From Pseudomonadota bacterium (GTDB lineage Bacteria > Pseudomonadota > Gammaproteobacteria > Pseudomonadales > Moraxellaceae), in assembly GCA_021781515.1 (NCBI GenBank), contig JAJXWR010000001.1, forward strand, positions 26,283-90,282: 64,000 nucleotides of DNA, written 5' to 3'. The number at the start of each line of letters is the position of its first letter. Position 1 is the stretch's first letter. A program made the position numbers and the translations under genes. Shown here in pieces: positions 54,666 through 59,896 of the stretch. A model generated the notes under the pieces. It ran no database searches. It worked only from the letters and a program-made list of their open reading frames with translations, and was not told the origin of the DNA.

Positions 54666-55799
54666 GTGAATATACCCGGTGTACGTCGAGAGTTACTGGA
54701 AACTTTTGTACCGCTCAATACCTTGCCAGAAGAGCGTCTGGACTATTTGTTGCGTGATGTCAGTATTGTCACCTTGTTGCCCGAACAAACTTTGCCCATG
54801 CGGGTGGATGACAGTGACAAAACGGTCTATCTCTTGAGTGGGATTCTGGAATTTCATGATGGCGCAGAAGATGAAATGGCGGGATCGGCTAAAAATCCGC
54901 GACCGGTACGGCCTGTCCGGCAGTTATCTGCCGGAGAAACACAGAGTTGGTATCCGGTGGCTGCTTCGAACTCCTGTCGGGTAGTGGCGAGGACGACCGT
55001 CAATTGCATCATGATAGATAAAGACCGTTTAGATCGGGTATTGTCCTGGGAGCAAACGGCACGTTATTTTGAAGCGGATCTGGCGTTTGAACTGGGTCTT
55101 GAAGACAGTCGCTGGCTGAGAAAACTCTTAAAAGCACCGATGTTTTACCATATGCCGGCGGTTAATATCCGTGCCATGTTCCAGAAGATGATTCCGGTGC
55201 GCGTGGTGGCTGGCGAGGCGGTTGTGCGTTTGGGAGGGGAAGCCGATGCCTGTTATTTTATTCGTCAGGGGCAGGCCTTGGTGAACGTGCCACCGGTCAA
55301 TGTGCTGGAGGATCCAGGACTGGAAATTTGTGTGGCAGTGCTTGGGCCGGGGCAGTATTTTGGGGAAGAGGGTTTACTCTACTCGGGAAAACGTAATGCG
55401 ACTGTACGTATGGCGACCGATGGAGAATTATTGCGTCTGGAACGTGTGGATTTTGATGCATTGATAAAGGCACCGGTGGTGTCGATGGTGACGGCTGCGG
55501 AGGTCGTGCAGCGAGGAATGACAGACTGGTTGTGTCTGGATGTTCGCTTGGCAGAAGAATGTCAGAACGGGATGTTGCCTGGAGCGATCAATATTCCTTT
55601 ACAGAGTTTACGCTCAAGAATGGCTTTACTGGAAAAGCCGCGTCGCTACCTGATTTATTGTGATACCGGGAGGCGCAGTAGTGCAGCGGCATTCTTGCTC
55701 AATGGGCACGGGTTTCTTTGTGATGTGCTGGAAGGCGGTATACAGGGAGTGAGCGAAGCTCAGTGGCAACAACTGCTGCACCCCGGGACTGTAGCATGA
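54666..55799 (+). CDS. Cyclic-nucleotide-binding-like plus rhodanese protein
   Basis: cNMP-binding features (GEADACYFIRQGQALV..FGEEGLLYSGKRNATVRM); rhodanese YCDTGRRS. Confidence 0.85.
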   Translation: MNIPGVRRELLETFVPLNTLPEERLDYLLRDVSIVTLLPEQTLPMRVDDSDKTVYLLSGILEFHDGAEDEMAGSAKNPRPVRPVRQLSAGETQSWYPVAASNSCRVVARTTVNCIMIDKDRLDRVLSWEQTARYFEADLAFELGLEDSRWLRKLLKAPMFYHMPAVNIRAMFQKMIPVRVVAGEAVVRLGGEADACYFIRQGQALVNVPPVNVLEDPGLEICVAVLGPGQYFGEEGLLYSGKRNATVRMATDGELLRLERVDFDALIKAPVVSMVTAAEVVQRGMTDWLCLDVRLAEECQNGMLPGAINIPLQSLRSRMALLEKPRRYLIYCDTGRRSSAAAFLLNGHGFLCDVLEGGIQGVSEAQWQQLLHPGTVA

Positions 55800-56674
55800 C
55801 CGGGGCTTTTCGGCATGTGGGTATCGTTGCCCGTCCGGGGCGGGATTCAGTGGTTACTACGTTGCAGGATTTACTGAAAATACTCCATGGGTTTTTGGTG
55901 CATGTGGTGCTTGAAGAAGAAACGGCTGATCTGATTGGCTATAGTGGTCAGAGAGCCAGTTTAGGGATGCTGGGTGAAATCACCGATATGGTCATGGTGG
56001 TGGGTGGTGATGGCAGTCTCTTGCGAGTGGCAAGGGCCATGGCCCGCTACCACTGTCCCGTGTTGGGAATTAACCGCGGTCGGCTGGGCTTTCTGACGGA
56101 CGTTGCTGCACAGGCGCTGCAGGAAGGCGTAGAGGCTGTTGTGTACGGGAATTACACCATTGAACTGCGTTTTTTGTTTGAATGTTTTATCAAATCGGAA
56201 GGTGATCAGATCCAGCAGGGGCTGGCTCTGAATGATGTGGTGCTCTACTCGGGTAAAACGCTGCACATGGTTGAGTTTGAATTGTTTATTGAGGGACACT
56301 TCGTCTATCGTCTGCACGCCGATGGCCTTATTGTGGCCACGCCAACGGGCTCAACGGCCTATGCGTTGTCTGGTGGGGGGCCGATATTGCATCCCCGTAT
56401 GGATGCCATGGTGCTGGTGCCCATGCACCCGCATTCACTCAACAGTCGACCGTTGGTTGTTGATGGGAACAGTGAAATCAAGATTCGCGTACTCTCCCGG
56501 GAATTTCAGCCGATGGTGAGCTGTGATGGTCAGGAGGGCCGAAGCCTGGCTGCGGGTGACTGGATTTATGTGCGAAAATATCCGCATAGATTACAGCTGT
56601 TACATCCGCCACAGCATGATTTTTATAAAACCTTGCGGACAAAAATGGGCTGGACGAACACGCAGCCATCCTGA
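55796..56674 (+). CDS. nadK: NAD kinase
   Basis: GGDGSLLRVAR; ATPTGSTAYALSGGGPI; ATGA overlap with the upstream gene. Confidence 0.95.
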   Translation: MTGAFRHVGIVARPGRDSVVTTLQDLLKILHGFLVHVVLEEETADLIGYSGQRASLGMLGEITDMVMVVGGDGSLLRVARAMARYHCPVLGINRGRLGFLTDVAAQALQEGVEAVVYGNYTIELRFLFECFIKSEGDQIQQGLALNDVVLYSGKTLHMVEFELFIEGHFVYRLHADGLIVATPTGSTAYALSGGGPILHPRMDAMVLVPMHPHSLNSRPLVVDGNSEIKIRVLSREFQPMVSCDGQEGRSLAAGDWIYVRKYPHRLQLLHPPQHDFYKTLRTKMGWTNTQPS

Positions 56675-56877
56675 TGATTGACATAATACGTTGGTTGGGT
56701 TCTATTTCAATGACCTTTGCTTTGCCTGAGGGCCTACACCGCTCTGTGCTACAGCATCAAGACCGGTGCAACACAACAAACCGTCAACACCGACACCTTT
56801 GTGGATTCTACTCAATTTACTGGATAGTGCCAGAGTACTATAGTATCAAGTGGCTAACTTCTTATGTCTTTTTTGAT

Positions 56878-57690
56878 CTATACAACGGCTGTTTGCATGA
56901 GATTGGCATCAGGATGGCAACTCACCAAGAAGGCCATCATATCAGTGGCATCTTTGCTCACATAGAATTCAGACATCTTCTGGTTGTATTCCAGGCGACG
57001 AGCAGCAGGAACAGTGATAGCATCAATGCCATGACTAATTAGAATCCCATTCATCATCAAACGGGAAGTTCGTTTGTTACCATCATAGAAGAACTGGCTC
57101 ATTGCACCAAACAATGAATAGGCCAGTCCTTGTTCAAAAGGAGGGAGTTTCCTTAATTGTTCAGCACCATTTTCAAACAGGTCAATGAGATTCTGACCGC
57201 CTTTTTCGGTTTTTGGTGGATGGTATCTTTGACCGTTAGGAAGGCTCACACTGACATCTGTGATAACCTCACCTTCACCACGGAAAAATCCAGCATCAAA
57301 AGCTTGTTTCTCCGCAACGATGGCATGAAGAGAGGTGACTGTTTTTCTATCAAACGTGAATTTCCCATCCCTCAACAATTTAATAGCTTCTTCTGTGCTA
57401 CCGATAAGACCAAGAACCTCCTGTTCATCTGAAAGCTTGTGACCACCCACAGTGATGCCGTCAATAAGAGTCTGCACTTCAGGGAATGTGAAGGGGTTCC
57501 CCTCCAACATACTTGCATTCCATACATACTCTGCCAACATTTTTCCAAAGCGAAAATTGGCACGCTTTACATCATGGACAGGAACATTGTCAGGAAAAGC
57601 TGAACGATCCCACTGGAATCCCAATGCACTGAATAACTCTGAATTATCTTGTGCTTTATCCTGACTCATAACCATATCCTCTTTACTCAT
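56878..57690 (-). CDS. Fic/DOC family protein with variant active-site motif (QFFYDGNKRTSR)
   Basis: Fic core; EGN segment NASMLEGNPFT; canonical motif His replaced by Gln. Confidence 0.88.
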   Translation of the reverse strand: MSKEDMVMSQDKAQDNSELFSALGFQWDRSAFPDNVPVHDVKRANFRFGKMLAEYVWNASMLEGNPFTFPEVQTLIDGITVGGHKLSDEQEVLGLIGSTEEAIKLLRDGKFTFDRKTVTSLHAIVAEKQAFDAGFFRGEGEVITDVSVSLPNGQRYHPPKTEKGGQNLIDLFENGAEQLRKLPPFEQGLAYSLFGAMSQFFYDGNKRTSRLMMNGILISHGIDAITVPAARRLEYNQKMSEFYVSKDATDMMAFLVSCHPDANLMQTAVV

Positions 57691-57727
57691 TAAATTTTAT
57701 CATTATTTTATCAGTTTGTGCCTAAAA

Positions 57728-57748
57728 CTCCGCCATGCATGACGGGGA
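57728..57748. mobile_element. IS605-type left-end hairpin
   Basis: ctccgccatgcatgacgggga imperfect palindrome about 70 bp upstream of the TnpB remnant. Confidence 0.5.
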
Positions 57749-57816
57749 TATCAGCATGCAGTTGCTTGTTGTTTGAATGATATCTATAATATCAGTATAA
57801 GCAGAGGGTTGAGCTA

Positions 57817-58247
57817 TTGGCGACGACAACCTTAACAGTCCGGTTGCGTGACAAGCACGCCAATCTTTTTGTGATGCAAGCGATGGCGGTGAACTTTGTC
57901 TGGAACTATCGGAATAAAATATCCAGTCGCAGCATTCGGGAACGAGGTCACTTTCTTTCCGCTTTCGATCTGCACGCCTACACCACAGGCGCTTTCAAAG
58001 AACCGGGACTCTATTCACAAACGGTTCAGTTCATTGCCGCTGAATACCTGATCCGCCGCAAACTGTTCTCAAGAAAGCATGTCTGGCATGGTGCAAGTTC
58101 TCCGGTTCGCCCCGCTCGCCGGGCTGGATGCCGTTCAATACGGGCGCATCCCAGTGGAAGCATGGCCAGATCTATTTCAACGGCACGTACAAGGTTCGGG
58201 ATAGCTACTTCAATGTGGAGGCACCCCATCGCCACAAGGCTTGTTAA
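57817..58247 (+). pseudogene. TnpB (IS605 OrfB) remnant, frameshifted and internally deleted
   Basis: N-terminus LTVRLRDKHANLFVMQAMAVNFVWNYRNKISSRSIRERGHFLSAFDLH..; another frame then reads WMPFNTGASQWKHGQIYFNGTYKVRDSYFNVEAPHRHKAC*. Confidence 0.85.
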
Positions 58248-58273
58248 GGATAGTTTAAACAGGAGAAAATGCT

Positions 58274-58626
58274 ATGTCCGTCTTTGTCGTTGAAAAAAAG
58301 CTGCATTGTGTGATCGGACGCCGGTGGTGTTGGTCAGGTATACTAAGTGTCGTGTGGTGAAAGCAATGGTTCCCTCAGGCAAGAAGGCTGTTGTCTATCA
58401 GGGCAAAGTCGCTATTTGTGCTTTAGGTGGTTTTCACATCACCACCGTGTATGGGGGGGGTCAAGGGGTATCTCATCGGCATTGTCAGCAAGTACAGCGA
58501 GCCGATGGATACAGTGACGTTAACGTGGCCAAAAGGGAACGTGATCAGGTACGCCACACAGCAAAGAACGCTGTACGTTCTGCGCTCTGCCTCATCGGCA
58601 TAAATGCCGATGTCTCACGTGTTTAA
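58274..58626 (+). pseudogene. IscB-like (RRXRR/HNH) nuclease remnant: N-terminus joined to C-terminus
   Basis: MSVFVVEKK start after an aggag SD; another frame reads CRVVKAMVPSGKKAVVYQGKVAICALGGFHITTVYGGGQGVSHRHCQQVQRADGYS, typical of IscB C-termini. Confidence 0.75.
58593..58612. repeat. Perfect hairpin catcggcat-aa-atgccgatg, putative element right end
   Basis: 9-bp perfect stem at the end of the IscB remnant. Confidence 0.7.
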
Positions 58627-58916
58627 TGATGAGTGTAGAACCGGAAGTGGCCGCAGATAAATTGCAAAAAATCCTGCGGCATGCGGTATCGCTGGATGAG
58701 GAAATGATTACGTCTTTTCGTCAAGCCATTGAACTAGGGCGATTTCCAGAAGGACGTCGGTTGGTGTCTGAAGAACTGGCGCTGTGTATTCAGGTGGTTA
58801 TCGCCTGGGAAGCGGTGCATTTACCGGAACAGCAGAGAACTGCCTATATTGACCGTGGTACTAAAATGGAAGGTGAACGTTGTGAGACTGAGGCCCAGTC
58901 CGTTCTACTGCGTTGA
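58626..58916 (+). CDS. DUF1315 (YeaC) family protein
   Basis: AIELGRFPEGRRLVSEELALCIQVVIAWEAVHLPEQQRTAYIDRG. Confidence 0.85.
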   Translation: MMSVEPEVAADKLQKILRHAVSLDEEMITSFRQAIELGRFPEGRRLVSEELALCIQVVIAWEAVHLPEQQRTAYIDRGTKMEGERCETEAQSVLLR

Positions 58917-59002
58917 TCTCTGGAGTCAGTGGCCCAGAAAATTTGTACTGGTGTATGATTTAAATATTCGGGTTATTGATTAATCCAGAGTTAGATGATT
59001 GT

Positions 59003-59896
59003 ATGGGTAAAATGTCTACAAAGGTGGTCAGGGTTTTTGAAAGAGAACTTCGGCAAAAAATACTTGATTCGGATAAATTAGCAACTATTGATTATCACTC
59101 TATCCTGGGTATGAGTACCGTGGAGTTAAAGCAGAGAATGCTCGAGGAAGGCATCGCCTGTCAGCATAATTTTTATGTAGAAATGCTTAATCTTGCACAG
59201 CTTTTTCTAGAAGCAGTTCTTGGATTGGCCGCTTTTCGTCAAGTGAATAATTTTATTGCAAAATGGCAGGATATTTATGACCCATCTTATCCACCGTTCA
59301 GTCCGATCACGCTATCTTGTTTTAATACGTGGTCAATGTTTGATGTGACCTTTGGTAGCGATAAGGAAACATTAGGTGGCTGTTTTTTAGCTATTGCCAG
59401 TCAATTGTCTCTTAATGAAATTTATTTACAGATTGCCAGGAATCTCGATAAATCACGGTTAGGGATTTATCTGGTGCTGGGAGGTGATGGACGTTCTGTA
59501 AATCTTTGTGAACTGGTGACAAACAGAGTGATAGTCGCCGACTGTGTTTCTGGTTATAAAGCGGTGCCAGGTGATCTTCTGTTAGTTCGACTGGTTCCTC
59601 AGGTGTTGGCGCAGTCAACACGTTATGTGATGCTGACTACTCCTTATCAACTCATCAGACAAAAACCGCAGGAATGGCTTCAGTATTTTGCACGTCATGC
59701 AATTATTCCCGATCAGATGTCGTCAGAGGAAAAACTGTACCGCCATATGAAATATGGCAAAAATCCAATGTACTGGATTGAATTTATTTTTTATGGATAC
59801 TGCAATTACCGTGAGGAAGTTATTTTTATGACCGGTTTTCCCGATCAGACGCATACGCAGCCGGCACATAATGATTACCAGAAAAAGCTGAGATAA
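59003..59896 (+). CDS. Hypothetical protein
   Basis: Single long ORF (track start TTG 58976; ATG 59003 in frame); no family recognised. Confidence 0.65.
   Translation: MGKMSTKVVRVFERELRQKILDSDKLATIDYHSILGMSTVELKQRMLEEGIACQHNFYVEMLNLAQLFLEAVLGLAAFRQVNNFIAKWQDIYDPSYPPFSPITLSCFNTWSMFDVTFGSDKETLGGCFLAIASQLSLNEIYLQIARNLDKSRLGIYLVLGGDGRSVNLCELVTNRVIVADCVSGYKAVPGDLLLVRLVPQVLAQSTRYVMLTTPYQLIRQKPQEWLQYFARHAIIPDQMSSEEKLYRHMKYGKNPMYWIEFIFYGYCNYREEVIFMTGFPDQTHTQPAHNDYQKKLR

Follow-up and report, generated by a model that had tools for sequence, protein, structure and literature searches.

A window of 64,000 nucleotides from a Moraxellaceae genome (GCA_021781515.1, contig JAJXWR010000001.1) contains the remnant of an IscB transposon directly upstream of a DUF1315 gene, and the right end of this remnant is one of many similar elements that abut start codons in the same genome. 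Their sequences suggest that insertion of IscB transposons takes place just ahead of ATGA start codons and brings along a split ribosome-binding site, folded as a pseudoknot, that hosts retain, a reading that we hold to be reasonably likely. The leaders lie at 24 or more genes, core genes included, and probably carry the ribosome-binding site of each. The broader proposal is that IscB right ends form a class of structured RNA that Rfam 15 lacks, acting as split ribosome-binding sites that render insertion harmless and are later domesticated as leaders of housekeeping genes; we regard its chances of being right or wrong as evenly balanced. If correct, it explains how IscB transposons, kin of the ancestors of Cas9, insert at gene starts without silencing them, and how core genes, rpoD, glmU and eno among them, have come to use transposon ends as translation signals. 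What the first-pass annotation of this DNA described as dead elements then becomes a candidate RNA family.

IscB right ends at start codons

The IscB remnant (58226-58626, forward strand, as are the other features unless stated) consists, in order, of the last ~25 nt of the omega-RNA, the start codon with the first ~9 codons, the C-terminus joined directly to these, and the right-end hairpin. Region 58354-58620 is 42-49% identical to annotated iscB C-termini on plasmids (tblastn, E 1e-15 to 2e-8). A profile of the omega-RNA end plus iscB start, built from plasmid elements, matches 58226-58295 at E 2.2e-4, the second-best match in the 64 kb having an E value of 1.6. This match indicates that the MSVFVVEKK start (58274-58300, also read directly), after which the bulk of iscB is deleted, is genuine and that ~25 nt of the 3' tip of the omega-RNA (HEARO; 58226-58250) survive. 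The C-terminal remnant (58354-58626, tblastn E 1e-15) is still one open frame, includes the target-adjacent-motif (TAM) domain, and stops on the DUF1315 start codon (TAATG) with a one-base overlap. The first-pass annotation had joined an IscB-type start straight to an IscB C-terminus, and both matches bear it out. It had also ended the IscB piece with a perfect 9-bp hairpin; the hairpin is perfect (58593-58612, arms 58593-58601/58604-58612) but belongs to the IscB element as its right end, lying inside the 3' coding end of iscB.

Plasmid IscB elements of Cupriavidus, Polaromonas, Methylobacter and Pseudomonas, and a truncated one in Thiomicrorhabdus, have a comparable hairpin pair and a tail like TTTCTCGCGCAAA-TGATGA. 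Among nine annotated plasmid elements inspected that have such an end, seven are followed by a gene annotated as starting at the right-end ATG. IsrB, a relative of IscB, requires an NTGA-type TAM (PMC9581776), so an ATGA right flank is to be expected, and its frequent identity with a start codon is the notable part.

Two covariance models extend this pattern to the genome of the window and to its relatives; the gene names given for the leaders were read from translated starts. R2, a model of IscB right ends whose training set included the window, C113, C74 and C84, found 17 further copies in the genome, and with the window copy 18 of 18 abut a host start codon. These copies precede fixH, folK, rpoD, asd, ccmE, gspC, glmU and purU, an lplT-like and an aroG-like gene, a fumarase, a parA homologue, a thiolase and others. 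R3, built from one subtype, found 21 sites outside its building set, every one of them adjoining a start codon; they amount to ~13 independent genes, since several are orthologous across species. Six are new leaders in this genome (metH, erpA, a dnaK-like gene, an FKBP and two more), and those in relatives lie at eno, FKBP, rpiA, rnfB, mucD, fkpA-like and lipoprotein genes. The genome thus has at least 24 leaders, all at start codons, and the counts are lower bounds because scoring covered only some of the first-look candidates. Chance was rejected as the cause of the fit, given 18/18 and 21/21 against a generous estimate of ~0.107 per ATGA site. Many weaker R2 matches were not counted as IscB leaders, being TnpB ends with a similar hairpin or G018 repeats. 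In other families of the order, single leaders (L201-L213) lie mostly before open reading frames (ORFs), one of them slmA-like, and mostly have no IscB nearby.

Architecture of the right-end leader

The module is ~105-107 nt long and contains a Shine-Dalgarno (SD) sequence within a helix, P1, then an adjacent strand of a second helix, P2, the right-end hairpin, and the P2 partner strand just 5' of the ATG. P1 is GATAGC/GCTATC around the SD, or GTGGC/GCCAC in the subtype of the window, and a near-invariant CCC adjoins it. P2 pairs GCGAGA, right after the SD, with TCTCGC before the ATG; the window has ACGTGA/TCACGT. The window module spans 58525-58631 and is found by R3, which was built without it, at E 0.0027, and by R2, which was trained with it, at E 1.9e-22. 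Its parts are P1 (58525-58529/58553-58557), the SD-like sequence (58531-58538), P2 (58539-58544/58615-58620) and a further hairpin read directly from the sequence (58566-58570/58576-58580). P1 and P2 interlock, with the right-end hairpin inside, and would therefore make a pseudoknot. RNAalifold, applied to the right ends, picked a small stem only, so the hairpin was supplied to the model by hand.

Covariation supports both helices. Across 58 copies 96.6% of cells are paired, and both-side changes occur in 8 of 12 pairs (30 cells), a result matched by none of 500 shuffles; sliding the P1 and P2 partners destroys the covariation, giving far lower scores. The model that aligned these copies did not include P1. 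The SD-like sequence lies 0-4 nt 5' of P2 in all 58 copies, and 6-12 nt separate the end of P2 from the ATG. Along the linear sequence 61-91 nt lie between SD and ATG, a distance that would shrink to ~11 nt if P2 forms. None of the 58 leaders has an SD-like 4-mer within 18 nt of the ATG, compared with 18 of the 42 long ORFs of the window.

Several points weigh against an RNA that acts in this manner. That no local SD occurs follows in part from the motif, which itself fills the stretch before the ATG. P2 is poorly supported in the small subtype alignment A3, partly through misalignment, and in alignment A4 it belonged to the aligning model. Minimum free energy (MFE) values are unremarkable (z +0.1 to -2.1), and nested MFE folding gives P1 or P2, one at a time. 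The DUF1315 copy in the window has a weak SD, AAAAGGGA, and may be fading. For most stand-alone leaders, the argument for descent from IscB is their likeness to IscB right ends. RNAalifold, applied to the right ends, picked a small stem only, so the hairpin was supplied to the model by hand.

Of the loci scanned, none has a significant Rfam 15 match at the module; HEARO was detected in the controls. The HEARO model (RF02033) covers the opposite end of the element, and the right-end module lies outside it. A partial literature search, which did not take in the primary HEARO (2009) and ISC (2016) papers, found no account of this leader; insertion at ATGA sites or start codons has probably been noticed before. 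Messenger RNAs of ribosomal proteins with pseudoknots, and the looped SD of phage T4 gene 38, are cases in which the fold of the RNA determines how far the SD lies from the start codon. The module resembles these structured initiation leaders in its covarying helices around SD and start codon and in a fold that would set SD spacing. It differs from them in being a transposon end, in lying before many unrelated genes, and in an SD 61-91 nt from the ATG.

Origin and retention of the leaders

The module is absent at the nadK-DUF1315 junction of close relatives, and at rpoD in five relatives; rpoD of one of them (G003) begins ATGAGC, which constitutes an ATGA site. The leaders at these two places were therefore gained, insertion being the simplest route. 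Other leaders have been kept at orthologous genes, namely proA, eno and rnfB (two species each) and FKBP, mucD and fkpA-like genes (three each). One small-protein gene has the leader in two families, with a compensatory change in P2. An intact IscB element (L214) carries the module, and a few other copies retain IscB coding or left-end pieces alongside; apart from these, a search upstream of the stand-alone leaders found no left end and no IscB frame.

A sequence of events that would account for these observations begins with an IscB (HEARO/ISC) element inserting directly 5' of the ATGA of DUF1315 and separating this gene from nadK. On its left a TnpB element and a Fic gene would have ended up, both nuclease genes would have been deleted to stubs, and the IscB right end would have been retained for its function. 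In the transcript, P1 would form around the SD, and P2 would join the bases next to the SD to those just before the ATG, so bringing the SD close to the start codon. The transposon end would in this way serve the displaced host gene as a split ribosome-binding site. Since intact IscB elements bear the same module, insertion at a start codon would be harmless. After decay of the element the host would keep the end as a stand-alone leader; many ends of this kind remain in the lineage. We infer the folding, its part in initiation and the order of events from sequence.

The module may instead be solely a DNA end bound by Y1 transposase, found at start codons because an ATGA target is often a start, with the copies being passive relics that have no role as RNA. 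Intact elements have the hairpin as their right end, the IsrB relatives need an NTGA-type TAM (PMC9581776), and two intact-looking Y1 transposases are encoded in the genome. Copies without a detectable left end or IscB, however, keep SD, P1 and P2 at orthologues of several species, with compensatory changes, and transposase binding alone fails to explain such retention once the left end is lost. A start codon would also be hit by chance at only ~0.1 per ATGA, and we consider this explanation unlikely. A still less probable one is termination-reinitiation, in which downstream genes are translated from an IscB frame ending on the start codon (TAATG or TGATG). Both the window and several intact elements show the one-base overlap, which speaks for it, and it may operate in the window. 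It cannot cover the stand-alone leaders, which show no IscB coding sequence, and in some intact elements iscB stops ~50 nt earlier while SD and P2 are still kept.

The IscB elements could also have captured an old host regulatory RNA, a switch that exposes or hides the SD. An OFF state could arise from pairing of the SD with the CCC beside P1, and the small-protein leader is common to two families. Against such an origin, the right-end hairpin and terminal bases with which the module closes are those of intact beta- and gammaproteobacterial IscB elements, the module is missing from the relatives at nadK-DUF1315 and rpoD, and IscB coding or left-end pieces still lie beside several copies. Under strict filters, moreover, only 8 of 199 genomes of the family carry it at E 0.01, and host ancestry seems very improbable. 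The split ribosome-binding site brought in by IscB elements remains our preferred explanation.

The nadK-DUF1315 insertion and its relics

nadK (55763-56674) encodes an NAD kinase that is 50-78% identical to its counterparts in the relatives examined. In these relatives it directly adjoins the DUF1315 gene, and none has an insert. The ~1.95 kb between the two genes in the window (56675-58625, the left limit being approximate) was therefore gained by insertion. The DUF1315 gene (58626-58916, Pfam E 9e-17) starts at the conserved ATGA of the right flank (58626 or 58629), and a scan of genome contigs for DUF1315 gave one locus. The first-pass annotation had placed both relics between nadK and DUF1315, where they do lie, but overlooked a Fic-domain gene between nadK and the TnpB piece (56878-57690, reverse strand; Pfam Fic E 1.9e-6, 29 bits against a cut-off of 24). 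The Fic gene is open, convergent with nadK, and absent from this place in relatives. That annotation also had two nuclease families landing at or near one site and being deleted. The relics are indeed side by side and devoid of nuclease domains. The term graveyard passes over the IscB right end that was kept, and the IscB landing spot is not a random intergenic one, as the gene pair is split at a start codon.

The IscB copy has lost guide, scaffold and nuclease domains. It is a relic and not a working IscB, because RuvC and HNH are deleted; no Pfam match falls within it. Its source could also be IsrB, which lacks HNH. It shares with IscB/ISC transposons that have a HEARO omega-RNA (Rfam RF02033) the C-terminus, the right-end hairpin, the ATGA right flank and the omega-RNA tip, and differs from them in having no guide, scaffold, RuvC or HNH. 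In an RRXRR search the genome yielded no intact IscB, and 349 genomes of the family a single fragment; the control is weak, as no control genome carries the protein family. Rfam gives no match at the locus, where a full HEARO omega-RNA is lacking, HEARO being detected in positive controls; our own omega-RNA-end profile does match there. The expectation that omega-RNA or guide regions survive only in part is borne out, as nothing is left of the TnpB omega-RNA end and the IscB omega-RNA is reduced to its 3' tip.

The TnpB relic (57817-58220) is preceded by the left end of an IS200/IS605-type element (57707-57769, hairpin at ~57728-57748) that aligns with the left end of L002, an open 341-aa tnpB in the same genome. 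The frame at 57817 matches TnpB family proteins on annotated plasmids (tblastn, E 2e-26), and homology searches recover both predicted nuclease regions. The DNA of the relic is 76% identical to L002, and the L002 protein matches it in two different reading frames (E 6e-32 and 2e-14). Alignment to L002 places a 2-bp gain, the frameshift, near 58065 and reveals a 58-bp internal deletion; homology stops at ~58220 and the remainder is gone. The frameshifted, internally deleted N-terminus and the IS605-like left-end hairpin had both been recognised in the first-pass annotation. The relic thus has the N-terminus and left-end hairpin of IS200/IS605-type TnpB and differs from such elements in its frameshift and in lacking the RuvC core, right end and omega-RNA. 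The Pfam scan and the L002 alignment show that RuvC core and zinc ribbon are deleted, and the right end was not found within the window. Pfam and NCBIfam recognise neither the TnpB nor the IscB relic, whereas tblastn against annotated plasmids did; searches of PDB sequences with both fragments gave chance matches only.

L002 (contig C134, 882-1907, reverse strand) has both left and right ends, and two Y1 transposases encoded elsewhere in the genome look intact, so that IS200/IS605-type mobility may still be alive here. About 200 bp 3' of the nadK stop (56675-56877) are unexplained, and inspection by eye recognised no IscB left end there. Downstream of DUF1315 lies a 306-aa ORF (58976-59896) for which neither Pfam nor NCBIfam gives a match above cut-off; the gene that follows DUF1315 in several relatives is a different one and lies much closer.
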